Source: Epinephelus fuscoguttatus (taxonomy: Eukaryota; Chordata; Actinopteri; Perciformes; Serranidae). Taken from it: a stretch of DNA of 64,000 bases. The stretch covers positions 16,754,817 to 16,818,816 of the forward strand of contig NC_064756.1 of the NCBI RefSeq assembly GCF_011397635.1, in the 5' to 3' direction. Numbering within the stretch: the stretch's first letter is position 1; each line of letters starts with the position of its first letter. This document shows, piece by piece, positions 32,701 to 63,503 of this stretch. Under the pieces are notes generated by a model, which made no database searches, was not told the DNA's origin, and saw only the letters and a list, made by a program, of their open reading frames with translations. The position numbers and the translations under genes are program-made.

Positions 32701-35700
32701 AATGAGATCAAAGCAGTGAATCAGAGGAACAAAAACATTATTTTGTGACTGTTTTACTGTGGTACGTTCTAAAGCACGAATAAACACACCCTCACCTCCG
32801 CACAACCCAGCTAAAAGTTGCTGCATCACAGGATTTTGTGTGAATTCAGCTGAAGTGCATGCTTGTGTGTGTGTGTGTGGCCCAACCCCACCCCTGATCA
32901 ATCAGGCACACAGACCTGCAGCTGTATTCATACAGGAAAGAGAAAGCTGGTTGCTATGCTTATATAAAACCTCACGCTACTATTGGCTGGGGACTACACA
33001 CCACTACTCAAAGGCTGACACTCAGAAAGGTCCTGAACAAACCAAAATAAGACTTAAATACGAAAATACAGGCAGAGGGCAGGTTCTCTGCACATAGACA
33101 CCACTGCTAGTCGGTCATAAATGATGATTGAGACTGATTACATTTGTGTGAATCTACATATTGTGTGTTTTGTTTGTTTTTTCTTTTGGAAAATCCTGCA
33201 AGCAAGAATGTGCCGTGAAATGGATTTAAAGAAACTGTTTTGCTAACTGTTCTGTTTTTCTTCTTGTCTCAGGTTGCAAACACGTCTTAATGAGATGTTA
33301 AAGCAGAATAAAGACCTCAAGAGTAACTCCTCACTTATGGAGCGCAAAGTGGATGAGCTGTCAGATGAAAACGGTGTGCTTGCATCGCAGGTAATGACAC
33401 ACAGCAAAGGTTTCTCGCTGTTAAATGCTGCTAATCCCCTAAGTGAAAAGACAGTCATGTGCAATGTGTATGTCCTTCAAAGATTCAACACGAGCAGACT
33501 TCTCTTGAAACAAAGTCATGCAAGCATGCTGGTGTATATGGGGATTATGCCAGTCTCAGCAGCACTAGCGAGACAGAACAAAACAGACTCACATGTGTCA
33601 GTGTTGCTGATCCTAAAGACTTTTTCTAACGTATTTGTTGCAGGTGAGAACAGTGTCTTCACAGCTGGCCATCTTTGAGGCAGAAGTTAGCAGGCTGACA
33701 GAGACCCAAGCATTTGCCCAGGAGGAGTGGAGAAGCAAAACAGGCCACTTACAGTCCGAACTTGACCAAGCTACTGCTCAAAAGGTAGATACACATTCAC
33801 AACAGAAGCTGCATTCGAAACTGCTTTTGATTTGTTAAATTTTATCAAATGATGTAGATTGTACTCACTAAAATTAAACTTTTTTGTAAAGAATTAAAGC
33901 AATCCTATTAGTTATGTGTTGATTGAATTCAATCATTTTACTTGTTCATTACTTGCTGATTATATTTCTAGGCAAAGGTGTTTTAATGTATTATGCTCCT
34001 TTTTGTTCCTCAGGAGCTACTGACTGAACAAATTCAGATCCTCCAGGGAAAGATTTCCTGTTTGGAGGATGAAATAAGCAGGGCCACTAAGGAGGAAGTA
34101 GGGGAGAATATGGGGCCTGTAATGGAGGTAAAGTCCATGATTCTGTTTAAAACTTCACAAATGTTTGTAAATCAAAAGTAAAGTCTGCATGTTCTCAATC
34201 TTTTAAAATCTACTTTGGATGGGGCGTCGGTGGCTTAGTGGTAGAGCAGGCGCTCCATGTACAAGACTGTTGCCGCAGCGGCCCGGGTTCAACTCCAGCC
34301 TGTGGCCCTTTGCTGTATGTCACTCCCTCTCTCTCTCCCCCTTTCATGCTTGTCTGTCCTATCCATTAAAGGCTAAAAAGCCCCAAAAAATATCTTAAAA
34401 AAAAAAAAAAAATCTACTTTGGATGAAATTGTTACTAATTGTCTTCTTTTCTTAAATTTCCAGCAAGAAATGTTGACCAGTTTGAAGATTGAGCTGGAGA
34501 ACACATTTTGCTCCCTGAAACAGGCTGAGGTAGAGGTGGTGGCCAAAACACAGCAGCTGGCAGAGTATCAACAAGAAATTAATCAACAGAAAGAGCTCCT
34601 GAAACAGCAGGAGTCCCAAACTGAAGAAATGATTCAAGCCAAGGATGAAATTCTAAACAAACTGCAAAAGGAGATTGTTGAGCAGAGAGTAGCCCTTCAA
34701 CAAGAGATCCAGGATCTTAAGATTCAGCTTGAGCAAGCTGAGCAGCAGAAGGCTGAGCAGATGAGCAGACTACAGCAGCACATTACTGCTTGTGAACAAG
34801 AAGTTGAAAAACTAAAGGAAATTAAGAAAGAAAAGGAAGACCTTCTCTCCCAGACTGAAGAAAATTTGAAAGATCTCAAGACAAAATTATCTGCTGCTAG
34901 TTCCCTCTTAGCTGATAAAGACAAACAAATTGACAGCCTTAAAGGAGAAGCTGACATTCTTAAAGATGAAACCAAAAACAGCAAAAATGAAATTCAAGCC
35001 AAAGAGGAAATGCTTGCCAAATTACTTCTGGAGAAGTCTCATGAGCAAGACATTTTTCAGAATAAAATCCAGACCTTAACAGACCAAGTAGAAGACCTTA
35101 GCTCGTCTCTCAAACAGGCTCAGCAGGAAATTCAATTTAAGCAAGACCAACTGACCAAAACCCAACAAGAGAATGTCCAACAAAGGGAAGTACTCCAACA
35201 ACAGATTGTAACCTGTGAAGAGGAGATTCAGAGGTTAAAAGAAGAGATACAAGAAAGAAACGAGCAGCTTGTTCTTCTAAAGAATGACAGCTCTCGACAC
35301 TCTGAATTGTTGGAGCAAGAGATAACAGGTCTAAAATGCCAACTAGAAAGTTTAAATGACTCTCTCAGAAAGGCTGAGGGACAAGTTCAGGCTCAGAAGG
35401 TCATGCTTACAAACCAGGAGCAGCAAAATGCTCATCAGACCGAGGTCCTGCAGCAACAACTTTCTGCTTCTGAAGAGAGGGTGAGGAGCATGAAGGAGGA
35501 GATCCAGGCTAAAGAGGAACAGATGGACATGTTGAAAAATCAAAGTTCAGAGCAGTCAGAACTCCTACATGAAAAGCTCCAAGATTTAAAGAAACAGGTT
35601 GAGTGTCTCAGTTCCTCACTGAAGAATGCTGAGGAGAAGTTGCAGTCCAAGGAAAACCTGTTTGCTGAACAGCAACTACAGAGGACTCAGGATATGGAGG

Positions 35701-38700
35701 CTCTCCAGGTGCAGATGGTGGCATCTCAGGAGGAGGTGAAGAGGCTCAATGCAGAGATTCACGCTAAGGAGGAGCAATTAGTTCTGCTAAAGCATGACAC
35801 CTCTACACACTCTGAATTACTACAGAAAGAGATTGAAAGTCTGAATAAACAAATAAGTACTATGAGCAGTTCCCTTGAGATCGCCAAGGACCAAGCCCAA
35901 GCCAAAGAAGATGCGATGGCCAATCAGAAGCAGGAGAGTGCTTTGCAGATTGAGGCGCTTGGAAAACACAGTGCAGATCTTGAGAAGGAGGTTAATCGGC
36001 TGAAGGAGGAGATTCAAACTAAAGAATGTGAGGCAGACCTGTTGAAGGCTGAGAGCTGCAAAGAGTCACAAGTGCTGCAGAAGGAGATCCAAACTCTTAA
36101 AGACCAAGTAGAAAGTTTGAACGAATCCCTGAAGACTACAACAGAACAGGTTCAGGTTAAAGAAAACCTGCTGACTCAAAAGGAAATGGAGATTTCTCAG
36201 GAAACAGAAAAATTTCAAAACATGATGGCAGCCTCTGAAGAGGAGATTCGAGGCCTTAAGGAGCAGATCCAGGCTAAAGAGGAACAGATGGACTTGTTGA
36301 AAAATCAAAGTTCAGAGCAGTCAGAACTCCTACATCAAGAGCTACAGGATTTAAAGAAACAGGTTGAGTGTCTCAGTTCCTCACTGAAGAATGCCGAGGA
36401 GAAGTTGCAGTCCAAGGAAAACCTGTTTGCTGAACAGCAACTACAGAGGACTCAGGATATGGAGGCTCTCCAGGTGCAGATGGTGGCATCTCAAGAGGAG
36501 GTGAAGAGGCTCAATGCAGAGATTCACGCTAAGGAGGAGCAATTAGTTCTGCTAAAGCATGACACCTCTACACACTCTGAATTACTACAGAAAGAGATTG
36601 AAAATCTGAATAAACAAATAAGTACTATGAGCAGTTCCCTTGAGATCGCCAAGGACCAAGCCCAAGCCAAAGAAGATGCGATGGCCAATCAGAAGCAGGA
36701 GAGTGCTTTGCAGATTGAGGCGCTTGGAAAACACAGTGCAGATCTTGAGGAGGAGGTTAATCGGCTGAAGGAGGAGATTCAAACTAAAGAATGTGAGGCA
36801 GACCTGTTGAAGGCTGAGAGCTGCAAAGAGTCACAAGTGCTGCAGAAGGAGATCCAGACTCTTAAAGACCAAGTAGAAAGTTTGAACGAATCCCTGAAGA
36901 CTACAACAGAACAGGTTCAGGTTAAAGAAAACCTGCTGACTCAAAAGGAAATGGAGATTTCTCAGAAACAGAAAAATTTCAAAACATGATGGCAGCCTCT
37001 GAAGAGGAGATTCGAGGCCTTAAGGAGCAGATCCAGGCTAAAGAGGAACAGATGGACTTGTTGAAAAATCAAAGTTCAGAGCAGTCAGAACTCCTACATC
37101 AAGAGCTACAGGATTTAAAGAAACAGGTTGAGTGTCTCAGTTCCTCACTGAAGAATGCCGAGGAGAAGTTGCAGTCCAAGGAAAACCTGTTTGCTGAACA
37201 GCAACTACAGAGGACTCAGGATATGGAGGCTCTCCAGGTGCAGATGGTGGCATCTCAAGAGGAGGTGAAGAGGCTCAATGCAGAGATTCACGCTAAGGAG
37301 GAGCAATTAGTTCTGCTAAAGCATGACACCTCTACACACTCTGAATTACTACAGAAAGAGATTGAAAATCTGAATAAACAAATAAGTACTATGAGCAGTT
37401 CCCTTGAGATCGCCAAGGACCAAGCCCAAGCCAAAGAAGATGCGATGGCCAATCAGAAGCAGGAGAGTGCTTTGCAGATTGAGGCGCTTGGAAAACACAG
37501 TGCAGATCTTGAGGAGGAGGTTAATCGGCTGAAGGAGGAGATTCAAACTAAAGAATGTGAGGCAGACCTGTTGAAGGCTGAGAGCTGCAAAGAGTCACAA
37601 GTGCTGCAGAAGGAGATCCAAACTCTTAAAGACCAAGTAGAAAGTTTGAACGAATCCCTGAAGACTACAACAGAACAGGTTCAGGCTAAAGAAAACCTGC
37701 TGACTCAAAAGGAAATGGAGATTTCTCAGGAAACAGAGAAATTTCAAAACATGACAGCAGCCTCTGAAGAGGAGATTCGAGGGCTTAAGGAGCAGATCCA
37801 GGCTAAAGAGGAAGAGCTGATCACACAAAGAAAAGAGGGCTCCATACATTCTGACATACTACAGCAAGAGATCAAATGTCTCAAAAACCAACTTGCTGAT
37901 ATGGGTGACTCTCTCACAAAGGCTGAGGAGAAGGTTCAGACTCACCTGGTTATGCTCACCAATCAGGAGCAGGAAAGTGCCCATCAGAAGGAGCTTCTGC
38001 AGCAACAACTCTCAACTTCTGAGGAAGAGGTGAGGAAAATGAAAGAGGAGATCCGAGCTAAAGAGGAACAAATAATACTGCTGAAGACCGACAGCTCAGA
38101 GCAGTCTGATTTGCGACAGCAAGAGATCCAAAGTTTAAAGACACAAGTGGAGACTCTTGGCTCCTCACTGAGGAAGGCTGAGGAGGATATGAAATCCAAG
38201 GAACATCTGTTGGCTCAACAAGAGCAAGAAAATGCTCAACAGAGGGACGCTCTCAAAAACCTACAGGAGAAAGTCGAACAAGTAGAGATTCTGAATAAAC
38301 AGATTTCTTTACGGGAAGAAGAGATTCAAAAGCTAAAAGAGTCTCAGAGTGAGAATGAAAACCTCCTCCTCAAGGCTGAGGAGAAACTGCAGACACTTCA
38401 AGCAGAGCTGACTGCAGTCAACACACTCATAACCGATAAAGACCAAAGTTTGAACACTCTCAGAGAGGAGGTAGCTGCCCAAGCTAACTTGGTTCACAGA
38501 GCCAAAGAGGAAGCTGAGGCCAATGAGAAAATGCTGGCTAAGATAAAGGAGGAGAGCTCCAACCAGACAGATGCTCTTCACCATGAGATCCAGGATCTGA
38601 AAGGGGAACTGAAAACCACTTCTTTGAATCTTCAGGCTAAAGAGCAGATGTTACTTGAAACTCAGAAGGAGTCCGCTGAGCAGATAGACCTCCTCCAGCA

Positions 38701-41700
38701 TCAGCTTGCCTCTGTAAATGCAGAGCTGAACCAACACAAAGAGACACAAGCTGCAGACCTAAAACTGAAAGAGGCTGCACAGGACGCCACTTTTAGGGAG
38801 AAGGAAGCACTTGCTCAGGAAAAGGAAGCGCTCATGGCCAGGATACTCCAGGCGGAAAACAATCAGAAAGCTCTGGAGAAACAACTTGAAGGCATGGTGT
38901 TTGAAAAGGAGAGACTTGCTCAAGCCAAACAGGCTGTAGAGAGAGAGAACACAGCGTCCCACAAACTGGAATCTTGGCTACGGCAGGAGGTGGAAATATT
39001 AAAAACGGAGAAAGAGAAACTCTTGAGAGTAAAAGCCGAAGAAATTGAGATGCTAAAGAGAGATCTGCAGGAACAGCTCTCTGCTAAATCTGAGGCTGCA
39101 GAACACTACAAGGCACAGGTTGGTGTGACCACAATCCCCACAGAAAAAACCCTCTAGTTTCATTACTTGTATCTCTCTCTATATATGAAATTTGTTTACA
39201 ATCAAAAATTATTGATTTAGATATTTTTCTTTATGCTTGTTACTTATTGATTGCACTCCTTCATATGCATACTCGGTTGATTGACTTGTTTGGTGTCAGA
39301 TGAGAAGTCTGAGATTCATGCTAAGATGTTTATTTTATTACTACAATGTCGCAGATGGAGAAGGCAATGAGTCATTACAATGTCAAGAAGCAGCTTCTCC
39401 AGGAGAGCCAAGAGGAGGTGGCTGAACTCAAGCGTTCCTTAGAGGTTAAAGAGCGTGAAGTGAAGGCTACTACCATGGAAAACAAACTGCTTCAGATGGA
39501 GTTGGACAAGGCCCAAACCAGTGAGAAGGCACTTTTGAACAGGGTGGGCAGTTTGGAGGCACAGGTTGGTACTGTATTTTGGGGTATGAGGAGAACTGAA
39601 ACATGGTCTCTTAAATTACTGTTAAAAAATAGAAATTTTTTAAAGTTCGAGGACACTACAGCAAATGATTGCCGCTGATCACTGTATCTGTTTACTTTTT
39701 TAGCTTGTCTATGCTGACCGTAGCCTGCGGGCACAGAATAAGATTCATGGTAATGAAGGAAGTGCTACAGAGTCTGCTTACCTGGAGGTTCCCAATGCTC
39801 ACTCAAGTGTTCACACTAGAGCACAGGTGAAGAGAACTATGAGCTCTGACAGCCTGGACCAGAGCTCTCTGGAGGACTCTCTGAACAGCACAAGGTACTA
39901 AAAATCTTGGATACAAAGCATGACATCTTTTAGAGCTGCAGATATTTTATTGCATGCAGCTATTTCATAATGTCATTAAAATAACTAAAATATTGTTTAC
40001 AATTGTGCCATTCCAATTTTGGTTTGTGTTTTAGTGGATTATACTTAGGGCTGGGTATCGTTTAAAAATTTTCGATACCAGTACCCTTAAAACGATACCG
40101 ATACCAATTGAGTACTTCATTCGATACTTATTTTTAATAGTTCATTCGATATTAATCATGTGAATAGAAAGCAATCAGTTGCATAAATGTCTCCACTCCT
40201 CCCCATTCAAAAGATTTTTACACAAATACATTTTGAAAATAGCTCCGTCCATATCCCTGCACCCTTTCTCCCTCACACATACTCACAAACAAACAGCCCT
40301 CCACTCCACCCTTTCCCACTGGGTCCTTGGGATGGGCAGTGGACTCAGGGGAAATGAGGTAACCCACACACAGAAAACACAGTGGCAGTGTAGCACCATT
40401 CAGGCCTCTGTTCTGCTCTGTCCATCAAAGTTGTCAATCTCGGGGCATTTCTCATTGCGGCCCCCTGCCCTCTGTCTCTCTCTACTGTTAGCCAAGTAAC
40501 CCTGAAGTTTTCTCCATGTTTGTTGAGGTGCTTTATCATGTTAGTTGTATTCCCGATTTTTCCCCAAAATAATCTTACCTCATTTTATGCATTTGTACCA
40601 GGCGCCACAGGCGTTTAGTACAGCCATACTTTTGAGCGTTTTGCTGGCATCTCGGAACGCTGACCAGCCAACTCCGCTACAGATGCAGCGCGCATGGCTT
40701 CAACCTGCTTCGTCGCCATACAAACTGTTGTTGTTGCGGTGGTGGACCAATCACACGGCGCATTGAAACAAAGAAGGCTTGCGGTGATTGGCTGTGAGCA
40801 AAACCATAGAAACAATTTTTTCTAGATCTGGGTACAAAAAGAACTGATTGCAGGGTATTGTTTGACAGGCGCAGTTTCGATACTACTTGGTACTGGGTTG
40901 TTTCGGTCGATACCTGAAAAGTATCAAGTACCAATACCCAGCCCTAATTATACTCTTATTATTTGTTCTTCTTTGGAGTACGTCAGCTGTCAAAAACTGT
41001 TGCACACTTTTGTGAGTGAGGGAACTGTTACTCAAACCTCAACATGCACAAAATAATGGCATTCAGGTGTATTACGGCAACAATTAAAACTTTTTATATA
41101 TTTTACCTTTTGGGTTTGGGATTTTGGACCATAAAAAAATGGACTTGACTTTATGTTTTCCCTATCGAGGAGTTCCCATTGTCCCAATGACAATGAAGGT
41201 TGGCCTTTTTCTGTGCTCCACGAAAAGCCAGAAAAATCTTTCATCAGAGGCATAGTGGTAATCTGCTGTGATTTTAACGCAACATAATGCTCTGTTTCTT
41301 ACCTTTGCAGGAAACTTTCGGCGCCTGATGAATCAAGCACACCACTTGTTCGCAGTTCAGAGCGCTTGGCAGCCAAACGCCGGGGTCTCAAGGCCGAGTC
41401 CTTGGAAACCCTGTACTTTACACCAATAAACAACAGACAGGTCAACAGGTATGTCAAATGGTTTCGACCATCTTGGTATTTCACAGATTAGCCACCTTTA
41501 GGAGGTTTTTCAGATTACAGTCAGTGAGTGAGAGAGGTGGGTGTTCTAGAGTTCCCCTAAATTTCCTTTCAGTATATTAACTGTAGATGTGGGTCTCTTT
41601 GAATTGCTAACCTTTATTCAGCCTTCTGTGCACTACATTATATAGAAAAGCTTTAGGAGAAAGGCTTTTCTGGTTGTATTCCTGTAAGATTTTATAATTT

Positions 41701-44700
41701 TTAGGAAGACCAGATATCAAAATCAGCAAAGTTAGTTTTTATACAGTATGTGGAAATGCACCGTCATCTAGGGTCAATACCAGCATAATTGCAAAGCAGT
41801 GTTTTTTGAGACCAGTTGAGATTTTTGGCCTTAACCTATAATCAGTCACCAAAAATGAGCTCCATTTATCCTGGCTAGCATTTTCTGTGCTTTTGTTTAA
41901 TTGTAGTGGATCTGATGACAGTTATGGAACTCATCTGACCACAGACAGAGATAAATAAGAGACATAAAGATGTGATTTACACCTGTTAAAATAAAGCTTA
42001 GCCCATCAAAATAAAAATGTGAGTAATGCAAGAGGCGATAGTTGCCCTGACTCGAACTAAAACTATCTGGGCAATTCTCCTTTCCCTGTACATACATTTT
42101 TCTGATTTTAGTGAAACCTAAACCACTGTTTTTTTCATCATACTCTGTTACTGAGAATCTTGTTTTTCTACTTCATCCCCCTCAGGACCAGCACAGAGCT
42201 CAAAATGGAACCGGATTCAGTCCTGAAAAATCCGACTTCATCTGTCAAGCGACGCAGAACCACGCAGGTTATTAACATCACCATGACCAAGGTGGAGGAA
42301 ACTCACTTACACATTCATTGCATGTTTTGCATGTTCACAATAACACACACAGTTGAATCACTGTACACTTTAATAGTCACAATGGTTTCCATCTCACTGC
42401 ATCTCAGAAATCATTATGATGATGAAATTTAATCATTCGTGCATTTGGGGGGTTCAGCTGGTCTTAATTATTTACTAATTAATTTTCATTAACATTTTTA
42501 TCTGAGGTTTTAACCATCATACTACGACAAATTGTAACTGTAGAGCTCTGTGGCTCTACAGATTGTTTGGAGCATTGCTCTCAGTACAGTTCAACAGTGT
42601 TAAAATGCATTCAAAGGGCTGACCCCAAAAGTTTTAACTTGCGCTTTCAAAGCATCTTCACATTCCCACTGAAGTATTACTGTAGCTGAAAGTGACTGTG
42701 AGACTCTGGTCTGTAGAAAACCCCAGGTGGCTGTGAACATGATGAGACTTTCTACAGCCTGGCCTCAGCTCGCTCCCAGCCGAACCTCTCCAGTGCCCAC
42801 TCTGCACGACCCGTGTCTTTGGAGCTGTTTGATACACCTGGAAGAATGACCGGTGCTGCCAGCAACCAACTCATGGGCCTTCCAGGGTACAGACGGAGCA
42901 CGGTGCATTCACAGAGTAAGTAGATCCCCAGCTTACTCACAGAAGGTTTTACTGCAGGGTGAGAAACAGAGTGAGAGGTTGGGCTGAAAAACAAAACAAA
43001 ACATGCAGATCCTGGACCTATGAGGTGAAACAAAGTTTTTTTTGTTTTTGTTTTTTTTTTTTAATTATACTCAGCTGCCTGTAGGTAGTGTGGAACAAGG
43101 GCTGCAATTAAAAATAATTTTCAGTAGCCCTTTTTACACAGTACTGCTACATAGTCCTTTCTTTGTACCTCCGGAGCCACCTACACAGAGCCAAATGACG
43201 ACGGCTTCATTCTGCTCCAGGGTGTTATTATACACTGCAGTGCTGCTTTGCAGAATCAAGAGGCGTGACGTGTAACACATCAGCATATGCCTCTAGTGTG
43301 ACATACAACATGCGTCTGCAGCGCTTTCCAAATAACAACAACATCAGCATTAACGTGTCAACACCAATCATTTACCATCCCTGTTATATGGCAGCTGATC
43401 TCATCCTCTGCTCAGGGAGTAAGGAGGTCCCAGACCTCATTGTTTTCCCAATTTGCGGACATTTACGGTAGCTGTTCTTCTTTCTGCTAGCTGCTAATTG
43501 CTAACAGCTATTATCTATGTAAATCTCCTGTGGTGGGTCGCATGCAGAACGTTGTGATAACGTCACACCCATGCTGCCCATGATCCTGTCCCGCAGACTG
43601 TCCTTTTTCTACAGACACCATTTTGGTGCTGTTTCTACCTTCTGAGGCGGATCAAAGGCAAGGTAACTCTCCCTCCGTTCTGTAATCTCACCTTATATAC
43701 AGCATGGTGAGGCACCATAACAGCATGATATTCCCGCCTTGAACAGGCAGTGTAAAAGGGGCTGTTATCAATTAATTTGCCAACTATTTTGTCTGTTAAT
43801 CTTTTAATTAGGGGTGGGAATCACCAGATGAGCCATGATACTTGAGTCACAATACAATATTATTGCGATTTAAAATATGTTGTGATATGCTGAGTGTTGA
43901 GATAAAATATACTGCGATATATTGCAATTTATTACCTTTTTTCAGCTGTGAATTATGTCCCGAAAGGAAAACGTTGTCAACATCTGTTTTATCGAATAAG
44001 TTTTCAGTCAATTCATCTCACTTTTTTGCAGCATTAAAATGAATCTAGTAGACTGAAAAAGCAACTGACTTTATTATTCTAATGGGCTACATTTAATAAA
44101 TTTTAGGAGGCTAAGTTTAATTTGTATTTGTAATATTAATAATTTATATAATTTTAAAAATCTGTTGTGATGCTATGCTATGCTTTATCAACCCCACCCC
44201 CCCACCCCCACTATTAATCCTATGATCTTAAAAACATTAGAAAACAGTAAAAAGCGTCATCATGTGGTACCAACAAACAGTCCCCAGAGTATTTATTTTA
44301 TAATAAAAGACCAAAAAAAGGTGCAGACTTTCAAAAAAAATATTTTATGTTATTAAAATTATGTTATTTATCTGTTGATTTGGGTTTTGTATTGTCTGTT
44401 ATTTACACAGACAAGAGTTTTTAAAAATTACTGTTTGCTGTTGCTGCATTGGCTTGTGACACGTGTTTGAGTGATTACAGTAAACTTGAGTCACTCAAGG
44501 TTCCTCTTGTGCTGGGAGAGTACCTACTTTAAAATAGCAACCAGAAAAGTCTTTCAAAATGATGTTCAAAGAATCATTCTTCTCTCTTATAGTACGTGCA
44601 CACTATAAAGGGGGGGGTTCTGCTGGTCGGAAAATACCTGCCTTAACACTTTCTTTGTAAATTGAGTAATTTGGAGACAAGATGCAGTTAATTAGTTTCT

Positions 44701-47700
44701 GATTAATGGTAAATGATCTCAGATGGATATTACAGTTGTAGTAGTAAACAACTGAGATTTTTTTTAAAGATGTGTATGTAACTCTTATTTATTTCTTCAT
44801 TTGTTGTCTTCAGCTGCTAGTACGTTCTGCGCAGGGGCAGAGAACGAGCCCGATGGTGCATCTGACGATTGGATGAGGATTGCGGAGCTCCAGTCCAGGA
44901 ACAAGGCCTGCCTTCCTCATCTTAAGAGCAGCTACCCTGTGGAGTCTGAGGTTGGCAGATAGGGACACATGCACACACGGTTAACACAACAGGCATACAG
45001 TTGCATGTACATATTAATTAACACACACTGATGTTCTTGATGGCATTCATTTCCCACTAGTTTTATTAAGTCCCTCTCTGTCTGTTCCTTTTAGACTGGC
45101 CGTGGCGGTGCGTTCGTTTTCACAGACGAAGAACTGCGCACCGGTGACCCTTCTGACACAATCCGTCGGGCATCCATGATGCCTGGCCAGCTGCAAGAAT
45201 CTCTTGCCTCCCATCGACGGTCCTTCATGGTGGGACAGACAGGTGCCGCTGCTGGTACACGTTCTCATCGTCTGTCCTTAATGCCAGGCCAACTGCCATC
45301 AAGAACTGTCAGCTCCTCTCAGGTCAGAAGCCCGAAAGGCACAAAGCGGACTTCATCTACTGCGTCTGTACATCAGACTTCACCTGAGGTTGGTTTGCAT
45401 CAGTGTGCACAGAAATATTTGTCACATCTTGATGTTCTTGTTTGAGCCTGACTGAATCGCAATAGATAAATGTCTTATAGGCTACAGTTATTAGTTCCTG
45501 CAGCTTCAATGTTTTCTTGGACTAGTGTCCGCTATCAGCAGATTTTTTTGAGTATCGTCCTCCAATCATAGTAGTCTGGCTTTGCTTTTGGGTGCTTCTT
45601 ATGGTTGTGATCTGAAAGGTTACTTTTTTTTTACAAGTATGTAAACTTAATAAAAATAGGTCTAAAAACCAATTTCCTGAACCCCCTCTTGTGTTTTTTC
45701 TAACTTGTCTTCCCTTGTCTCTATCTGACAGAAAAAGCCAAGGGCCAGCTGTTTCCCACGTCCACTCACCCCCAAAAATAAAAATGTACTCAGCGAACCT
45801 TATCTTCAGCCTGCCCACAGTCCAGTGAGTGTAATACACACACACACACACACACACAGAATTATCTGGTCGGTTGAAAATAAAGATGAGAGAATTAATT
45901 TATTGATATTGTCATGAACGCAACTGTGCATATAATATTTTGGATTTTTCACAGTTTCACTTGTATTATTCTTTCAGGCTGATCGGAGGCAGTCTATGAT
46001 GTTTACTATTGACAACACGCCTAAAAACAGCAACTACCTTAAGAAAGGCCTGAACAAACTGCGTGGCTCCACCCGGAAATCCCCAGGCAAAAGTTTAAAG
46101 AAGTCGCCTGCTAACGCATCTGCACGCAAGGGCCAGGAAAACATTCGCTCAGGGAATACTCGTACTGGAACAGTACGAGCAGACAGAGCTGGCAGCTTGA
46201 AGTCTCCTGGACTGACGGCCAGTGCTCGCAAGGTAAATACACACATACAGATCCATTCAGGGTTTCACATGGCACCCTTAAATAATGATTTTAAGTTACC
46301 CTGTGGCGTTTTCTCTGACTGCACCGTATGTGCCCATGCCGGCATGATGCCTGTTGTGTCGTAGCAAGGGTGGGAAAGTGCCTCAGTGCAGGCAGCATAT
46401 GAGGCAAGCAGGTATGACGTAGAATCTCCATCAGCTGATTTAAAAAAACTAGGGATGTACCTAACGGCTAAAAGGGGATTTATACTTGTGCGGCAGACCC
46501 CGTGCACGTGGCCTACGCTGTTGGGAGCATTTATACTGTGCAGTTGCGTGTCTGTGTCACTCTGCAGTTACACCTCCAAAACACTAGTTGGCGGCGGAGG
46601 TTTCTGTGAAGTGCTGTAAAGTTTGGTTGATTCAAAACACACCCAAAACACACATTAAACAAGTACACAAATCAGCTTCATTATAACTCGCAGCATTCAC
46701 AGACAAAGCACTTGTCTTTTGCTGGACCCATTTTCCCCACAATTACAACATGCTGATGTTTTTAGCACAAGCCTATGGCTTTACATTGTATAAATTAGTC
46801 TAGCAGCTAGTGGCCTTCTCTCTACTCATATGAAGCCAGGGACAACAGCAGCATTTAACAAACAAATATAAGATGCTAACATTATTAGCACAAGCCTATG
46901 ACATTTTACATTGTTTAAATTAGCCTAGCGACAAGCGGAGATTTCCTCTGCTCATATGAGGCCAGGATGAATCCTGAAGTATAAATCCCCGAAGGACAAA
47001 TCACGCACAAGACTTAAAATGCTATTTTAGTGGAGGCTGTATTGTCTTGACAACTTATTGTTTTTTTTATCTGTGAAATTAAAGTAAATAAAAGCTTTGT
47101 TTCCACTGAGGGAAATGGTTTCAGCTTACAAATATAGACAGGAGGTCTGCGTCGCTGTGTGTAGTTACATTTCTGGGGAGGTGCACGTCACGCAGCGCCT
47201 ACGCCATACGTACAGTGTCGATTCGACACAGAAGTATAAATCCCGCAAAATTTCGTTGATGTTTAAAAAGAAGTTTAAACTAAGACTATCCCAAGAGTCT
47301 TAAAGTTTAAAAAAAAAAAAACCTGATTATTACAATGGCATTTTCATTGAGTAATGGCAATTTCACGAAATAACAATTTATATAATATGTTTAACTGACT
47401 AGTATTTCTGGTGTTGACTAGTCAAAGTAGCAACGTTTATTCGGTAGTCGACTGATCCTGCACATCTTAAACTCAAACCACAGCAGGAAGTGGAGATACT
47501 TTAGTTAACTCTAATCTCACCAGAAGCTTTTTTGAATGTTGAATGTTTCATACCTGTGCCATTCACATTGCTCTTTTTACTGGCGTATTATTATTTTACA
47601 TTTTATTTTAAATTTTATTTTATTTAAGAGTAAGGACCTCTGCTGTCCACAAAAGTATGAGTCATGCAATCAGTAGTTGTCACATTAAGTCATACTATGT

Positions 47701-51368: not shown

Positions 51369-54300
51369 ATGGATCTGGACACCGAAGTTGAAAGGTGGGT
51401 GTTGACGCACAGCTTTTTGACAGCGGAGATAAGTTCCCCCTGCCATCTTTGTTACGCTGTCTCTTTAAGAAGACATACTGCACAAGTAAAGTTATTGTAC
51501 TTCCTAAATGCTTAACTTAACTAAATGTTCCATTTTTAAGTTGTTTGCTAATTTGCCTACCTTACTTTGTACTAAACTAACTATAGTACCCAGCTACATA
51601 TGCAGGTATATTAAAGTATGTATACTTATTATTAAACCCTCGTACGCGGAGAGTTAATTCAGCTGTCACTTATGTTTCACATCTTTTCAAATTACTTGAC
51701 CAGTCTTTGGTGATCTACCTGACTTATTGTCCATCAGTGTTCTTAGAGGAGTCTCCTAATAAAATGCTATTGGTCATTAATTAGGGTCCGGGCAGCTAAA
51801 CTGCCAGGACACTATTGTAATCCTAGGTATTCTTCTTCTTTCTTCTTCCGAGGAAATCATACTTCCCATGCGTGAAAACTCACCAAACTTTGCACAAAGG
51901 TCCAGTCCCATGCCAGATATCCTCAGCTGTAAACTCAAGCCAATAGTCCTGATGGTGGCGCTACAGCAAGCGTCTAAAGTTCAAAACTTTGAAAATCCAT
52001 AACAAATCAAGCATACGTGCTACGACTTCACAACTTTCATCAAACTGTAGCCCCAATACTGAAGAAACTTTTGTACATTTAAACCTATTAAAAATTATGA
52101 AATTCATCACTGTTTTTTCAAAAACTGTAAAACTTCTTAAACCTATCTCCTCCCACAATTTTTGCTCAATTGACACCAAACTTGCTACAGAGCATCTTCA
52201 GACTCTCCTACAAAAACTACGTTTCTCAGATTTTTGATTTATCAAAAATTGAGCCGACAGTGCATCAAAATGTTTGACTGTAAACAGTACTGTAAACACA
52301 TACATGCAAATTCTTGGTAAATAAATCTTCAATGTTCATGAAAAAAAGACAAAATTCTAGAGTCATGGTAGATGATGTGTGGCACATTTCAGAATTTTAT
52401 CTCAAAAACTGAATTTTTGACAGCATTTTGAATTTTGCTCTAATGTGAACAATATAAAAATGTCATTTTTGAACATCAGTTTTTCACTTATGGAGCAAAT
52501 CAAATCATTGTTACAAACAAATTACCAACATCTCTATGCTGTCTAGATGCAATATGTGTATTTTCAGATTTTTGTTTCCATAACTGAATTTTTTTTTACA
52601 GTGGTTTAAAATCTGCTTTTCCATGCATGGATGGCTGCTAAACCTGCACGTCTGGCTTAGTCAATTTATGAAGCTGCATATTAATTGTCACTGACTAATT
52701 AGCTCAGTGAGATAGAAATTGATTCTTAGTCTCAGAGGTTGTGAGTTCAAGCCTCAGCTGATGCAAAAGGCAGATTGTGTTGCTAAATTCCTAAATGTCT
52801 TCAATTCTTCTGTTTGTTGCTCAGAATTACCTAAAAATGCCTGGACCCGACCCATCGCTGCGCAGCAGCTATAATTCCCTATTGGATTATTTAAAACAGT
52901 GTCACACCCACTAACATCCTCTTTTCATACCCTCAGGATCTTTAGGCTGGAGGAAGATGATGATGATGAGGAGGAGGAGAAGAAGTGTAAGAGGCCACCC
53001 TCCAGCTATGGCTCAATGAAGAGTGACAGTGATGAGATGGAGGAGGAGGAGGAAGAGGAGCAGGGAAAAGGAGCAGAGGTTGTTGAGGCCTTCACTGCCC
53101 CATTTCCTGTGGCCCTACCTGAATCGACTACTGAGGAGGCGACCGGGTACTGCAGTTTGATTTGATATTTAAGCATTATCCCAGTGTTTCTGTGTTTTGG
53201 CTGTTTCACCACAGATTGTGTTAGGTTGTTCATAACTGCCATCTATACATTTGCTGTACTCCGCACCTGAGCTGGTGTTGACCTTGTTGAAAGCTGCTCA
53301 GTAAAGGCAAAGTTTGGATTAAGTTTTGTGAATCACAGGATGTATTGCTCCTTCCCAGGCTCTGGGTGGCAGTGACAACCTTTTCACAAATTTCCTATGC
53401 ACAAGTCGGATTTCCTTCCTTCAAGGCTGCCCTCGGTATCTGTTCATTTTAGTACAATATGCAAATCAGTTTGCTTGTACATGCCGGTATTCTATATGAA
53501 TTCATTTTTCTAAAAACAGAGGTTTGGCTCTTTATGCTGCTAAAATTCAGTCCACTGTGCTATGTTTTGAAGGGAGATGTTTCTTTCAGTGACTTAAAAA
53601 TTGCTAACAGGAACTTGACCAGGACTTACCAGGTGGACGTTGTCCCTAATTTTTTGCCAGGTTGCAGATGGTTCGCTCAGAGTCTCCAGAGACCCTCTAC
53701 ACCATGACCACACAGCAGACCAAACCACCGGGAGCTCTTGTCATTGACACCAGGTGGAGGACACACACACACGCACACACACAGAGGATTGTCTTTCATA
53801 AATCTGGACAATGTAAATCAAAGCTACAGCTAAGTTTACTTATTGCCTTTTTTGCTGATGCACGCAACTGGCATAATGATGTGTATAACATGTCATTGAT
53901 ATAGTTGTTAACAATCACTGGAATTCTATCTGTCGCTCCCAAATTCACCACTCGCCTCAAATTAAACATTTGTTTATATCAAATCATTTTTGATAATAAT
54001 ATCTTGACTAGCTTTGTTTTTACTTATATGTGAAAACAGTAAAAGACACCCCCATTTTGTAACACCAAGTTTGGGGTAGAGACTTGATAAAGACATCTAA
54101 CACTTGTGTAGATAAATAGAGTATTATTACCTTAACAAAATGATGTATGCGATTTTTGTTTGAGTGGAGTCAAAAAGAGACAACACATCAAAATGATCCT
54201 CAGACAATATATGCAGTGTTCCGTCCTGCATTTCTAACTTTCTTCCTTTTTGTCTCTCAGGTCTTCAGATCTGGGGGATTTTTCGGACAACGATGAGGAA

Positions 54301-57300
54301 GATGCAGATGAAGTTTTGGTAGCTGATTCCCCAGAACCACCTGAGCCTGTTGAACCAGATGATGCAGTGCAGACTGATGAGAATAGCCAGCCAGGCAGAC
54401 TACACCCAGAGCAGGACCTGCCCCATATTTTCAAGGTTGATGCAGCACAGTTGGTCTGCAATGCCCAATGTTTTCATTTCTTTTGTGTCTTGTTGTTTTG
54501 GTCTCAGGACTTTCTTTGACCTGATGATACCTTTTAAATCTATTGTTTGATTTTAATACATCCTGATAATAGTACACATGCCTATTAATATCTATCTCTA
54601 TTTGTTAAAAAAAAAAAAAAAAACATTATATAATGAAAAAAATAATTAAAATTTGACAAGTATTTGTGGCGCTTTACCAGTTTCCTCAAGTTTGTTAATA
54701 AATGATGAAATTTAATTTTTTAATCTTGATATGGCCCAAAGGACATCCACATTATTTCAGCAGGACAATGGCTTAATTACCTTTCTCTCTGTCTGCAGAG
54801 TATGCAGAGTGTTTTAACACGCCTGACCAGAGAAGAGCTCTTCAAATTTAAGATGTGGTATTATCAACGGGAAACAGGCATAACCCTGCAACAGGTGATG
54901 GAGGGAGACATTCTTGATTTTGTGGATAAGACCCTGGAGGTACTTGGTAAGAAAACACAGCCATAGTACATTAATAGTAAAGCCATAGTTATGAAAATAA
55001 GGATTCAGCCTTTGGAGTGCTCATGGACTTACAGGTGTGTTCAAAATAATAGCAGTCCAACATCACTAACCAGGTCAATCACTATTTTTGGTAGAAATTA
55101 TATTCCTACATGGCAAATAATTTACTAGTAGGTGTAGTAGAGTAATAGAAAACCAACAGGCCCAACAGTCATGACATGCATGCTGCTGATTCTGTGTAAT
55201 TAAATAATAAATTGAAAGGGGCGTGTTGAAAATAATAGCAGTGTGGAGTTCAATTAGTGAGGTCATTCATTCTGTGAAAAAACAGGTGTCAAACAGGTGG
55301 CTCTTATTTAAGGACGAAGGCAGTCAATGGGTCGCTCCAGACAATGTTCAGAAGACCTGTGTACTTTGATTAAAAAGTTGACTGGGGGGGGCGTCGGTAG
55401 CGCAGTGGATAGTGCCAGCGCCCCATGTATAATGGCAATGCCTTGCCGTAGCGGTCGCAGGCTCGACTCTGGCTTGCAACCATTTGCTGCATGTCACCCC
55501 CCACCCGCTCTCTCTCCCTCACCCTGTTTCACTCTATCCTGTACAATAAAGGCAAAAAGCCAGAAAAATAATCTTTAAAAAAAAAGAAGTTGATTGGGGA
55601 GGGGAAAACATATAAAGAAGTGCAGAAAATGATAGGCTGCTCAGCTAAAATGATCTCAAATGCTTTAAAATGGAAACCAAAACCAGAAAGACGTGGAAGA
55701 AAACGGAAAACTACCATTCGAATGGATCAAAGAATAGTCAAAATGGCAAAGACTCAACAAATGATCAGTTCCTCGGAGAGCAAAGAAGGTCTTAAGTTAC
55801 CTGTGAGTACTGTAACAATTAGAAGATGCCTATGTGAAGCCAAACTAACGGCAAGAAACCCCCGCAAAGTCCCGTTGTTGCAAAATAGACAAACATTTTG
55901 TGGACTGATGAAAGCAAGATTGTTCTTTTTGGGTCTAGGGGCCGCAGACAGTTTGTCAGACGACCCCCAAACACTGAATTCAAGCCACAGTACACTGTGA
56001 AGACTGAAGCATGGTGGCACAAGTATCATGACGTGGGGATGTTTCTCATATTATGGTGTCGGGCCCATTTATGGCATACCAGGGATCATGGATCAGTTTA
56101 AATACATCAGAATACTTGAAGAGGTCATGTTGCCTTATGCCGGAGAGGACGTGCCCTTGAAATAAGTGTTTCAACAAGACAATGAGCCCAAACACACCAG
56201 TAAGCGAGCAGCATCTTGGTTCCAGACCAACATGATTAGCGTTATGGAGTGGCCAGCCCAATCCCTGGACCTGAATACAATGGAAAACTTGTGGGGTGAC
56301 ATTAAAAATGCTGTTTCTGATGCAGGACTAAGAAATGCAGAGGAATTGTGGAATGTAGTCCAATCATCCGGGGCTGGATGATTTTTTTTGAACAGCCTAA
56401 TATTCCCTTTTCTTCACTGTCTGTGAAGTAGTGACAAATTTGATAAATTTTTCTTTATGTTTGTATTTGGAATAGACTGCGCAGTGTTCCCAGTGCATTT
56501 ACATATATGGAAATAAAAGCTATTATAAGGATTTGGGGCTTTACTCACTTTTTTAAACACACTGCTATTATTTTGAGCACAAATACTGTCTGCAATTGCT
56601 TACTGATGTTATTTATTTTTTATTTTTTAAATGTTATTAAAATTCTGTTCTGCAGGTCAGGACCGGTCTCTGTTGCACACAATAACCACCCTAGAAAATA
56701 TCAACAAGAAAGCAGAGGCAGCCGAACTAAAGGATATGTGCAGTAGAGGCAAGTGCGCGTAGGTTTTATCCCATCACGAGCTTATAAAAGTAAAATTTGT
56801 TTTAATTAAGTCTGAATGTTGTGACTGCATTTTTGACATTTTACAAAAAGTTATTTAACAGAGCATGGAATGTGCTCTCTGAATTTTTGTGTGTGTGTGT
56901 GTCACGGGTCTAAAGTAAGTCAAAATAGATGAGTTTGTATTTTTTCTCCTGAAGACAAGGTGTAACTAATAAAGTATTAAATGCTTCTGGATACCAGTGT
57001 CAAGGTGACAATAAAAATGTCAGCCATGTGATTTAGAACCTTACTTTCCCTACACTTTAAGTGAAGTGGGATTCAGGGGTTTAGGGTTGATTGTGGCATG
57101 TCTCCTGTGGTGAGAATGTGTAGATTATTATTCAGTGTGAAATCCAGATTCTGAACCACAGTTAGTTTTCTCACTTCCCTCTTTATCTTTGTCCACCACC
57201 AGTGTTGATCCGTTTTCACCTGATGCAGGAATTGATCAGAAAATACGAAGTCATCCGTGAGGGGGTCGTTCAAGCCGGAAAGCAGAGTCTTCTAAATACC

Positions 57301-60300
57301 ATCTACGTTGAGCCCCAGATTTCCACCTGTGGTTGTGGAGGCGTTTACCCCTCCCATGAGTACCGACCCCACCCTCCTACACCTCTCCAGGTTCCCAGTG
57401 CCGACACCTTTGTGAGTTTGAACAATCTGTTCCGACTACAGACGAGTGATGGCAAGCTGGTGAGGACAGTTGTGACCACTGGGATTCCAGGAATTGGCAT
57501 GTCTGTCTCTGTGGCAAAATTCTGCGTGGATTGGGCAAGATATCGCGCCAATAAGGTAAATCAACAGAAAATTTAAAGGGGACCTACTATCCTCATTTTC
57601 AGGTTCATACATTTTTATTTTCTAAATGCTTTGATGTTCAAAAAACACTTAATATTGTGTCTATTCTGGAACACCTGTTTTTATCTTTTTTAGCGCCTGT
57701 CTCTTTAAGCCCCCCCCTGAAAAAAAGCCCAATCTGCTGTGATTGGTCGGCATGTGCGGTTTCTGCACTCACTGTCATTGCATTCGGGGAATGACTAATG
57801 AATAGCACCCCTTTCTACGGTGAAAAATCACTAATAAAAGCTTCTAAACCAAAACTTTAACAACTGGACATGTTCCACAAATATGATCTACAGAGAAGGA
57901 GAAGTTAAGCGTGTTATGATAATCACGTAACGTACTCATTGTACGATAAATGAATGTGACCTCAATCATTTTGTTTACCTTAATATTACCAGTTGTGTAG
58001 GGTTTCTATAACTACTTTTGCAGCCATTATAAAACTTGGGCGCAGCAATTCTCCTGAGGTAACTGTGGTGTTCCCGGAGCTTTGCTAGTCAAAAGAGGCA
58101 TTGCTTGGTTTTGTTTTTGTCTGCCACATTTTATATTAAGTCTCAAATGGAGTCATTTTAGGCTACTCCTGTCCACCTTATTCCTGAGGGCACTACTGTA
58201 GAAATGATAATGGGCGCAACTTCCAGTGAGATAGCGGAGGTAGCATTAAGCTAGTGAGCCTCATAGACTGTCTGTGGTTAGTGGCTAACCGCTAGCGTTG
58301 CTTCTTTTTTAAAGTACTTCGCCTTCAATTTAGCAAATACTGATTTCTTTTTTTAACAAATATTAAAGCAATGTTGACCTAGCGTTCTCTAAAATGTCTC
58401 TGCGGAGCTCTGGTACCTGTTGCACTGTCCGTGTCTGTAACAACTAACCAGTCTAAGCTAAATTTTTGTCTTCAGCAGCTGTGTGTTGAACATGTAACCA
58501 GAACAAAAAGGGATTGCTCCTGTTGCCGAAGGTACTGTTGATATGAGAAATAAAACCACAAGAGTTTCACGAGACATAATGAAGAGAATGACACTTAGAC
58601 TGACAGGTCCGCCACTCAAAGTCAGTACATGATATCACCGTCTTTCCCCGTCTGATTTCATTCTCAACCTACATTAGAAAATTGTTCGTTGTAAAATAAA
58701 CTCAGCAACATACCTTGAAATATGTATTTAGTCATAAGGGCTGACAATGTGTTACTGATTTACCGTACTTCCTTTATATCATATAAAAAAAGTTATTGCT
58801 TTTACTCCTACTTTAGATCACTATAACTGAAGTGTGCTGCTAAATTCAGCACCATGCTTTGCTCAGAACAGTTCTTAATAAATCAGAAGCAAAACCTATT
58901 AACGGCGTCATTAACGCAGATGAGCGGAGGATTAGCTGGGAAACATCACATTTATTCACTTTACGTTAAGCTACAGTTAATACTGAATTATGTTTAATGT
59001 TTGGCAAATGTGTTAGTATCTCTTAATAAGTCCTCAGAAATCAGAGGAGCAGATGTTTACCTTAAGCTATCTCAGGCCATGTTAGAGTTAACAACATTTT
59101 AAAGGAGCAAGGCAAGCTAATTGCTAGCGTGCTCGGTTGCTTTGAGATGGCTGTCAGAGATGGCAGAGGTGTGATCACATAATCCAGTTTGAGCTATAAC
59201 AGAGGGTGTGTTCCACGTTTTATCTCCCAGTTGCTCTTGGAAAGTAGCGTTGAGTACCGTTAACAAACTGATACCATTGGAAATCGCCGGTGTCTGTTTA
59301 ACGGCGGATGTTGCGCCTATAGTTCACGCAAGATATCATAGGAGCTAGGAATAAGGTGAATAAAGTTCCTATAATTTTATGTGTACATTCTTGTATATAT
59401 AAACAGGTGTTAATTAAAAATATGTTAAATATATATTTGTAATATTCCACTGTCTAAATATTTTTAAAAAGTTAAAGTTATTATGCCATTATATTATCGT
59501 TATGTCAGTGGCATAAAATGGTCTCAAAATGACAGTAATACTGTAATCGCAATCATCTCTGGGACAATATATCATCCCACAAAAGTAGTTATCATGACAG
59601 GCCTAGAATAAATTAACAACATCGGCAACCAGGATTACATGTTTTCCTGCCGTTAGCATGTAGCTCACCCATTCTTCAGAATTGAGGCAAACCATGTCCT
59701 GTGAAAAGAAAACGTAAAGTTGTAACTTATCGACACTTTAGTTCCATTTCTGGGGTAACACATAATTTTTAAAGGATCTATTTATATGAAATAAATATGA
59801 TTTATGAAATTCTTGAATCTGCGTTCATTTTTTTTTAACTTCTAAACTTGCTAGCTGCCAGAAAAAAACATCTCACACAAGAATTCACAACTTTAAACAA
59901 TTAAAAAAAGTGTTAAAAGCCTTCAAAATCTAAAATGAATGTGCGTACTGATAACATCCGTGTCAAAATGTATAGCTGTTTTCATTGTTGTTTTAATGTT
60001 CTTTGTTTTATCTTTGTTTTATCAGTGTATGTAATGTAAACATTTGCAGTAGTGTGCCTGAGGCAGATGACCATATTGAGAGATTAATTTTGCAAACATT
60101 AACCTCAGTATTTGAAACTTAAGCCATGTTCAATATGAATGTCCGACAGTGTAACATTATATTAACTGTATATGTGACCGAAAATAAGGGAAAGCATGAT
60201 GGGTCCTTTTAAGTTGTTTTTTCACTTGTTTTTTGAAGCTGACATAATTTTCCTCTCCATTTTTTTGCTCAGGATCTGCACTTCATCATCAAAGTCTCAT

Positions 60301-61902
60301 GCCGATGTTTCTGGTACCTGCGAAGCTATGGCGCTCTTTCAGAGAAGATGTCCATCATGGACGTGATAGAATACTATTACCCTGAGTGCAAAGACATGAA
60401 ATACCTGGAGCAAGAGGACTGTAGATTTCTATTCATACTGGACTCAATGGATTGTTACCAAGCTCCTCTGGACTGGGAGGTATCCCATCTGCACACATAC
60501 ACCTGAGATCCATTCACATTTGTAACTGTAAAAAACAACCTAGAACCTGAATTGTAAAGATAACCAACAATATAAAGTTTGAAGTCTTTGTATCAATTAC
60601 CAGTTTTTGGAGATAAGCACTGGTCAAGTGAGCAATCCCGGCATGTTTTAAAGGCTACTTACTTGTTCCTAAGCTAACAAATGATGAGCAGAAACTGATA
60701 TATTTGTCTATTTTTCTCTTTTCTCTCTCTTCAGAATGCCCCAGTAATAAATGACAATTACACCAAAGCACATCCCGACGTCCTGATTGTAAATATCATC
60801 CGAGGCACTGTGCTTCGTGGTGCCCGCGTCTGGATCCTGGGGAGACGGGGGGCTGTCTCACAAATACCATCTCAATTTGTTGACATCGTCACAGAAGTGC
60901 AGGGCTTTAGGTGTGTGTGTACATGCACTGTATGTTGGTTTTGTGTGCAGCCGTTCAAATTTTAGCTTTTGGAAATCTCATTGTATTTGCTGCTGTTTTT
61001 GGCCTTGTGTGTCTACTTTGTGTGCATGTGCAGTAACAGAACTGAAATGGTTCAGCAGCAGAATTCACCCAGTTAAAATCAATTTTAACCTTTTTCGTTC
61101 TGGCCTATTTTAATCCAGTTTTATTTATTTATTTTTTTTGTCCCCTCTTTTCTCTAGTGATGAGATGAAGGATCAATTCCTGACCAAGCGCTATAGCGAT
61201 GCAGCGCTGGCAGCGAAAATCGTGGCCCATTACAAGCGACTACCGACACTCCATATGCTTGCCCGACAACCCTTTGTCTGCTGGATGTTGGCCACAGTTT
61301 TCGAGCGCTGCTTCCGTTATCAGGCCTATGGGGAGCACCCCCCCAGGCTGACGCCCTTCTACGTCAGCATTATGATCATCCAGACCAATCGCAGGCTGGG
61401 GTTCTACTATGGCAAGCAGGATCATGACCTGGTAACATGCAAATTTATTTTCTTTTATTCTTTTTTTTCTAAGGTATGTCACAGTTCCTAGTGGCTTAAT
61501 TCACAAGTACAAAAATAAACCACTAAAATGCTACTGGTCCTGTCGTCTGTATCAGCCTTTCACTTCCCATTAGTAATTTTTTACAATCAGAAATTTATCT
61601 ATCATTAAAATTTTAATATTACAGTATCGTGGCCATCCACGATACTGTGCCACCAATGCAGTCCGATACAGTTGACCTAAAATTATTATTTTTATGAAGC
61701 CTATAAGTTTCAATACTTGCTGACTGTATTATATTGTGGTGTCTGTGTTTTTTGCCCTGCCTCACATTGCAATTTTCTGCTTACCAACAATAATCCAAAC
61801 TGCTGCATCAACAGTTAACCCTAGCTTTGAACACCTGTATCAGAGTATCAACAAAACCAAACATTGAACCTAACTGACTTAATCTCTCAGAAAGCCCGAG
61901 CC

Positions 61903-61936
<34 letters not shown>

Positions 61937-63430
61937 TTTCAAGAAAAGCTAATTAACAGCTTCACTTCAGCGTTAGAACTTGTCACCTCAATGTCCCCTT
62001 TCCACTCAGAAATGGTCCGGTGATGAGAGACACCTGCTGACAAAGATGGGGAAGATGGCCTTTAAAATGCTGGAGAGGAATACCAGCGTGTTCTTTGAAG
62101 AGGACGTGAAGGAATACGGTCTGAAATTGACTGAGGTGACGGTGTTCTCAGGCATGTGCACTGAGCTCCCTGCTGCTGCCTCGGACGAAAAGAGGAAGTT
62201 CTGCTTTATACACTTCACCTTTCAGGTAAAACTCCATTGTCATCTACTCATCATCTAATTTTTTCCATGAAACCTTTTTTTTTTTTTTACGGTGCTGTAC
62301 CATAATATAATATTCTGAAAACCATTTTGCAGTTATCATTCAGTGTTTTTTAAAGTAGCTGAGCCATGGGTTTAATGTCAAAAGAGGTTATATATAAATG
62401 GGTGAGTTTAGCTAGTTGCCTCAAATAAGATATGATCAGATAATTGTATGTGTACACCAAGATGAGTTCAAAAGTTTTAAACCTCTGAACAAGAAAAAAG
62501 GTACATTTTGATATATATACACATATATATTAAATAATTAAATGCGTATAAAGCAAACATCAAGAGATAAAAGAACAATTAACACAAGACACAAGATTAG
62601 GACTTAAAACAACTACATGCTGCTCGTCCAAGCCCACCTATCAGAGACATGTCCTTAGACTGCCTGGCCACCAGAACCCCCCTAAAGATTCACCTGAACA
62701 ATCACCCCATGTCTCGTCTCCTCCAGGAGTTCATGGCCGCTCTGTACGTCTTCACGATGTTTCGCACAGAGTCCAAGAACGTTCTGGACTCTGCACTGGT
62801 GCACAAGCCCAAGATCTTCACACCCAAGGATCAGACCAAGTCAGCAGCAGGCCTGGTCCAGTGTGCCGTGGCACGAACCCTCGGCTCCCCGCTGGGCCAC
62901 TATGACATGTTCCTGCGCTTTCTGTGCGGCATGCTTTCCCGGGACTGCCACGACAATCAGCTCCGTGGGCTACTCTACAGCCACAGCACACCCAAGGTGG
63001 CCGGTCTGGATGACGTGCAGCGCCTGCTGGAGCAGACGATACAGACTGCTAAAGAAGACCGTGTGGAAAACTTGAAGGAGTGCCTCAGAGAAATGACCCA
63101 GGAAGATGAGTGAGTCTGGGATAGATTGCTTCAGATAAATCAGTGACTTTATATGGACATGATTGGTCAAAGAGAAGTACAGTCTGCTCTGTTATATTTG
63201 GTCATAGAAATCATGAGTGATCACAGTGTGTGTGATGTTTATTTATATTGTTAATCATATCACTTTTATTACTAGTCTTTCCATGATGATTTAATTTCAT
63301 TTAATTGAAAAAAAAAATCTCTCATTTAGCAGTTATTACCACACATTTCTTCTCTTCCATTATCCCTCTGGCTACTCTCTACTCATGAAACAGGATTGAG
63401 GAAAGTGGGTACAGACTGATAACTTTGTAA
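51369..63430 (+). CDS. NLR-family protein: PYD-like, FISNA-NACHT, no LRRs, degenerate ATPase
   Basis: Fish NLR-type innate immune protein, exact name not recognised. Coding exons: 51369-51394, 52937-53146, 53661-53753, 54261-54435, 54799-54946, 56656-56748, 57203-57555, 60273-60479, 60735-60910, 61158-61431, 62010-62225, 62727-63109, 63394-63430, all phase-consistent, about 796 residues. Residues 9-168 are acidic and serine-rich (EEDDDDEEEE; RPPSSYGSMKSD, a phrase of fish NLR leaders). Residues 169-248 (LTREELFKFKMW...) look like a PYD-type death fold. From 249: FISNA (LIRFHLMQELIRKYEV..QSLLNTIYVEP), then NACHT. Walker A reads GIPGIGMS (residues 342-349) with Met348 for the invariant Lys; Walker B is FLFILDSMDC (418-427) with Cys at the DE position; sensor-1 is WILGRRGA instead of WITSRPA. 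HD2 is visible (FCFIHFTFQEFMAALYVF). The chain ends where LRRs would begin. Alternatively it stops at 63113 without the last exon. Intron 6 uses a GC donor. Confidence 0.88.
51783..52870. repeat. Dispersed repeat in intron 1 of the NLR-like gene
   Basis: The left margin 'gggtccgggcagctaaactg' with a run of 'ttcttcttctttcttcttcc' and the right margin 'tgcctggacccgacccatcg' are a phrase pair I recall as a fish-wide repeat of about 1 kb, with partially inverted ends (gggtcc/ggaccc). The interior contains 'caccaaactttgcacaaagg'. No recognised protein. Family unassigned. Confidence 0.5.
55032..56588 (+). mobile_element. Decayed Tc1-like (DD34E) DNA transposon in NLR-like intron 5
   Basis: Ends are inverted repeats: left CAGGTGTGTTCAAAATAATA, right TATTATTTTGAGCACAAATA (core TCAAAATAATAGCAGT in both). 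The transposase can be traced in pieces on the plus strand: a helix-turn-helix region (YKEVQKMIGCSAKMISNALK), a basic RRGRKRKTT stretch, and the catalytic triad in WTDESK, QQDNEPKH and NTMENLW. The second Asp and the Glu are separated by 34 residues, the Tc1 arrangement. It is interrupted by a SINE and by frame changes, so it is inactive. It is not host coding sequence. Confidence 0.9.
55388..55585 (+). mobile_element. tRNA-derived SINE inserted in the Tc1 element
   Basis: Shares with the 34222 SINE the opening 'ggggcgtcggtRg', a B-box-like 'ggctcgactctggc', a CT-rich core, 'acaataaaggcaaaaagcc' and a poly(A) end. It is flanked by imperfect direct repeats AAGTTGACTGGGG (about 55375-55387) and AAGTTGATTGGGG (about 55587-55599), the target-site duplication of the Tc1 sequence. 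Confidence 0.9.
57573..60212. mobile_element. Large inverted-repeat element occupying NLR-like intron 7
   Basis: The left end TTAAAGGGGACCTACTATCC (57573) and right end 'catgatgggtccttttaa' (ending 60212) are inverted copies, and inside both lies 'ctgaaaat'/'attttcag' text. This is the signature of a common fish nonautonomous element. At 2.6 kb the interior is much longer than usual and contains at least one other fragment ('tatcatgacaggcctag' near 59590). No transposase is seen. It nearly fills the 2.7 kb intron between exons 57203-57555 and 60273-60479. Confidence 0.6.
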
Positions 63431-63497: not shown

Positions 63498-63503
63498 AAT
63501 AAA
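63498..63503 (+). terminator. Polyadenylation signal of the NLR-like gene
   Basis: AATAAA at 63498-63503, 68 bp after the stop of the proposed terminal exon, in an A/T-rich 3' region with a poly(A)-like tract at 63430-63450. It supports the gene ending here without LRR exons. Confidence 0.6.

Follow-up and report, generated by a model that had tools for sequence, protein, structure and literature searches.

The window analysed here, a stretch of 64,000 nucleotides from the grouper Epinephelus fuscoguttatus (contig NC_064756.1), carries on its plus strand at 51369..63113 a gene that is most likely the orthologue of teleost nlrc3l (NLRC3-like) rather than an unknown NLR, and whose nucleotide-binding site is the subject of this report. 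All features of this gene are given on the plus strand. The spliced frame is open, as originally proposed; it runs through 12 coding exons and encodes 785 residues, the end of the protein (...MTQEDE) being set by the stop codon TGA at 63111-63113 and being identical in the protein of Epinephelus lanceolatus. A thirteenth exon in the original prediction (63394..63430, no strand assigned) is not supported as coding: its peptide is found in none of 138 relatives, which stop in exon 12. Among the 129 relatives of at least 675 residues, 126 terminate 5-7 residues past a shared ...CLREM-type motif, and the remaining three (P0116, P0134, P0135) have other C-terminal endings. An AATAAA lies 3' of the stop at 63498-63503. 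No leucine-rich repeat (LRR) was seen between the stop and the AATAAA at 63498, in a window that ends 570 bases past 63430. Exon 6 ends with a GC splice donor (GCAAGT, 56749-56750). Intron 5 (55036-56581) contains a Tc1/mariner-like element with 21-nt inverted repeats (95%) and a short transposase frame (HTH_Tnp_Tc3_2, E 1.3e-8).

Exons 1-4 (51369..54435, residues 1-168) encode a mostly disordered, acidic N-terminus; in the model of the E. lanceolatus protein, the predicted local distance difference test score (pLDDT) is below 50 across most of residues 1-151. Within this region the motif RPPSSYGSM(K/R)SD (52937-53146) is present from grouper to piranha, matching a strict pattern in 86/129 relatives and a loose pattern in 120/129, and we presume a resemblance to the N-terminal repeats of fish NLR-C proteins. 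It is followed by a pyrin domain (PYD; residues ~161-250, 54412..57207, spanning the end of exon 4, exons 5-6 and the first bases of exon 7), FISNA (residues 257-325, exon 7, 57226..57432; PF14484, E 2.3e-9), NACHT (residues 336-508, exons 7-10, 57463..61200; PF05729, E 1.5e-16), and the winged helix NOD2_WH (594-651) with NLRC4_HD2 (653-784) in exons 11-12 (62034..63107). The four Pfam families all score above their cut-offs, in agreement with the FISNA-NACHT-HD2 architecture first described for the locus, from which the PYD had been overlooked. Pfam detected no LRR family in the grouper protein, as had been claimed, nor in 62 aligned orthologues; the stop and the AATAAA both come after HD2. 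In these orthologues NACHT, winged helix and HD2 were recovered in 62/62 and FISNA in 60/62. Pfam PYRIN was not found in the grouper protein alone even at E 1, and was matched in 32/62 orthologues. A PYD family profile of eight proteins, searched against the PDB, gave POP1 (3.4e-6), AIM2 (8e-6) and ASC (9.8e-6) as top matches, the best NLRP PYD being NLRP6 at 0.014, and the fold of the grouper-type model matched 3qf2 (NLRP3 PYD). Thus the order of PYD followed by FISNA and NACHT that characterizes nlrc3l is present, the PYD being recognized by family profile and fold and the other two by Pfam.

The homologue searches returned 136 proteins (120 listed), 174 (120 listed) and 58 (all listed). One relative, P0001 of E. 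lanceolatus, is 97.5% identical over 785 residues. Among the matches listed (120 of 136), orthologues are 51-98% identical, mostly at 97-98% query coverage, with E from 0 to 1.9e-208, and P0103 and P0105 carry the NCBI name “uncharacterized protein nlrc3l”. Among the outgroup relatives are Esox and Umbra and, for the Ostariophysi, Serrasalmus and Chanos. No match is named as zebrafish, the likeness to zebrafish nlrc3l being drawn from published papers. For twenty of the matches listed, “lgn” contigs of 2,498-5,730 nt are the sole source, each with an entire frame of 760-802 residues; given the exon structure of nlrc3l, these would most simply be spliced transcripts without LRRs. The main alignment has 139 rows, namely the grouper protein and 138 relatives, with P0139 and P0140 (23% identity, source “ena”) excluded; counts of 139, 136, 135 and 130 below include the grouper's own row. 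For the core of 130 rows, nine partial rows with less than 80% coverage were excluded. Two further alignments, A3 and A5, comprise 62 and 61 of 140 proteins.

The Walker A segment of the grouper protein reads GIPGIGMS, in which the Lys position is occupied by Met348 (codon ATG, 57499..57501), confirming the substitution originally reported. Across the 139 rows, residue 348 is Met in 115, Leu in 13, Lys in 4, Asn in 3 and Arg in 1, with 3 gaps; the Walker A Lys is absent in 132 of the 136 sequences having a residue there. The Walker B segment FLFILDSMDC contains the core D423-S-M-D426-C427 (60441..60455), equivalent to DGxDE in NLRP3. Equivalences with NLRP3 were taken from a phmmer alignment and from the mutants listed in PMC9633759. 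The proposed loss of the Walker B acidic pair was mainly wrong, as D423 (60441-60443) and D426 (60450-60452) are kept, align with NLRP3 D302 and D305, and are Asp in 127/135 and 134/135 aligned sequences, respectively. What stands is the loss of the DGxDE Glu, which is replaced by C427 in the grouper protein, the Gly being replaced by S424; at position 427 (NLRP3 E306) Glu occurs in 0/135 sequences. Further residues of the site are retained: sensor 1 Arg472 (NLRP3 R351; 60843..60845) in 129/130, PhhCW Pro532 (P412; 61270..61272) in 130/130, and His653 of the winged-helix domain (WHD; H522; 62211..62213) in 121 of the 129 with a residue there. Compared with an active NACHT ATPase, the predicted protein lacks the Walker A Lys and the Walker B Glu and keeps the Walker B aspartates, the sensor Arg, the PhhCW Pro and the WHD His.

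The mean site rate of nine retained pocket residues is 0.21, compared with 0.84 for pooled NACHT and WHD sites; only 1 in 20,000 random site sets reached so low a mean. These nine were picked after their conservation had been seen, and glycines of a P-loop could evolve slowly on structural grounds; the rate result is therefore support and not proof. On this sequence evidence the nucleotide pocket looks still constrained though without its usual catalytic residues, the slow evolution of the others arguing for a maintained, modified site rather than decay. An open AlphaFold2 state was also considered as an effect of the Lys loss and was dropped, since the Lys-bearing Chanos orthologue was modelled in the same state.

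Comparison with known systems places these features in context. Among solved structures, NLRP3 is both the best sequence match to the FISNA-NACHT-HD2 part (8.5e-21) and the top fold match; it differs from the grouper protein in having LRRs, the P-loop Lys (K232) and a DGFDE motif. Fish NLR-C proteins share FISNA and NACHT, but their Lys-bearing Walker A, whose consensus is printed as G[IV]AG[IV]AGK[TS] (PMC4852459), and their C-terminal LRRs are absent here. The gene is most likely nlrc3l rather than an unknown NLR-C, and a PYD-FISNA-NACHT class lacking LRRs is already listed for fish NLRC3-like proteins (PMC9978379). Mammalian NLRP10 is likewise a PYD-NACHT protein without LRRs and a regulator, but it is described as a functional ATPase with a conserved Walker B (PMC12525115), and its PYD (2do9, E 0.058) matches the PYD family profile more weakly than POP1, AIM2 or ASC. 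The PYDs of POP1 (PYDC1), AIM2 and ASC are the nearest solved sequences, the grouper PYD being joined instead to a NACHT body. A close counterpart is zebrafish Nlrc3-like, which has NACHT and no LRRs (PMC9174460) and requires both PYD and NACHT (PMC8105094). Its loss leads to abnormal macrophage activation and loss of microglia (PMC9110401), it interacts with ASC (PMC9978379), and when asc is disrupted, the change in bacterial burden caused by nlrc3-like deficiency is reversed (PMC9174460).

Taken together, the grouper nlrc3l orthologue is judged, with some confidence, to be a hydrolysis-impaired PYD-NACHT brake acting on ASC or on upstream PYDs. The loss of the Lys in nearly all fish relatives found suggests that the protein works without normal ATP use. 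Its NACHT would not run the ADP/ATP cycle usual for sensor NLRs, and the pocket may hold nucleotide without effective hydrolysis, or hold none. The POP/ASC-like PYD, displayed on the NACHT body, would engage ASC or upstream PYDs but start no productive filaments, and such a standing brake would keep macrophages quiet. “Impaired” is the safer word, because the NLRP3 mutants K232A and E306Q retain 0.34 and 0.22 of wild-type ATP turnover (PMC9633759); of the initial proposal that ATP is not hydrolysed at all, the loss of Lys and Glu stands, and a full loss of hydrolysis goes beyond it. A scaffold or decoy role, also proposed at the outset, fits the published zebrafish role and the POP1/AIM2/ASC-like PYD, if by analogy only. 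A wider version of the brake is put forward tentatively, as one that may well not hold: nlrc3l may have been a family-wide pseudo-ATPase NLR since early teleosts, its pocket fold lacking P-loop Lys and catalytic Glu and serving as a hydrolysis-free platform which presents a POP-like PYD and restrains ASC inflammasomes.

Several observations weigh against the brake. Lys is carried at residue 348 by Chanos P0135 and, among Met carriers, by P0081, P0090 and P0102; such orthologues had been named originally as evidence that would count against the proposal, and these four of 136 imply that Lys is tolerated there, the other 132 being non-Lys. The three lost sites evolve no more slowly than random sites (mean rate 0.61, p 0.35), so that selection for Met as such is not demonstrated, and conservation at site 348 is only moderate (rate percentile 0.31; Fitch counting gives 16 parsimony changes). 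In the outgroups residue 348 is Lys in Chanos, Asn in Esox, Umbra and Polymixia, and Leu in Serrasalmus, and either a single loss followed by reversions or repeated losses may lie behind this pattern, which was analysed by the same change count. The order of the PYD matches should be read with caution, E values for separate ASC entries ranging from 9.8e-6 to 0.03. POP1 reportedly targets receptor PYDs and is ineffective against ASC (PMC10803020), for which reason both ASC and receptor PYDs are kept as possible targets. Finally, K232A leaves NLRP3 a third of its ATPase activity and, for speck formation, E306Q is hyperactive (PMC9633759), so that such losses alone predict no brake.

Among the alternatives, a still nucleotide-regulated NLR is considered unlikely, although it fares best. 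ADP or ATP would be held without the Lys by the P-loop backbone, Ser349, D423/D426, R472, P532 and H653, and the nucleotide state would gate exposure of the PYD. The retention and slow evolution of the other examined pocket residues, the four Lys-bearing sequences and the residual 0.34 of ATPase in NLRP3 K232A (PMC9633759) are all consistent with this, but the Lys is missing in 132/136 and the Walker B Glu in 135/135, and the Lys carriers also lack the Glu. A constitutively open, nucleotide-independent scaffold, in which NACHT without LRR and Lys is active-like and caps or titrates PYDs, appears slightly less likely. Decay of an NLR or a pseudogene with drifting motifs, to which the altered Walker A and the faster PYD (mean site rate 1.24 vs 0.79 for NACHT) might point, is very improbable and was rejected on conservation among relatives, which from piranha to percomorphs are alike in length and domains, with 55 of 617 core columns at least 98% identical across 130 sequences and slow pocket residues, bearing in mind that the relatives are predicted proteins, among which broken copies would not appear. 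The preference for selection over decay in the original prediction is thereby supported, by the domains in 62 orthologues and the Lys loss common to 132/136 sequences.

Elsewhere in the window, the upstream neighbour gene (33247-46364), called numa1 in the original prediction, is reminiscent of NuMA through its coiled-coil frames and a basic stretch, RRQSM; no Pfam or PDB match identified it as numa1. The nlrc3l relative P0064 bears the name “nuclear mitotic apparatus protein 1-like”. At 34377-39157, where the upstream gene has long coiled-coil frames, stretches of 300 nt recur every 765 nt, in three copies 88-100% identical. One of the intervals is 764 instead, and near 36960 a copy lacks one base and the frame shifts, owing either to an assembly error or to a real frameshift. 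On the minus strand, frames at 16302-17174 and 27326-27928 encode a Frizzled domain (Fz, E 2.6e-30) and LRRs (LRR_8, E 2.4e-6).

That nlrc3l lacks LRRs and acts as a brake is already known, as is the gene itself. What may be new is the absence of the P-loop Lys in 132 of 136 sequences whose pocket is otherwise retained; the accessible sections of the literature on nlrc3-like and Walker A, a scope outside which the original 2013 paper falls, do not mention a lost Lys in nlrc3l. If confirmed, nlrc3l would represent a natural and tractable example of regulation by an NLR in the absence of normal ATP hydrolysis.
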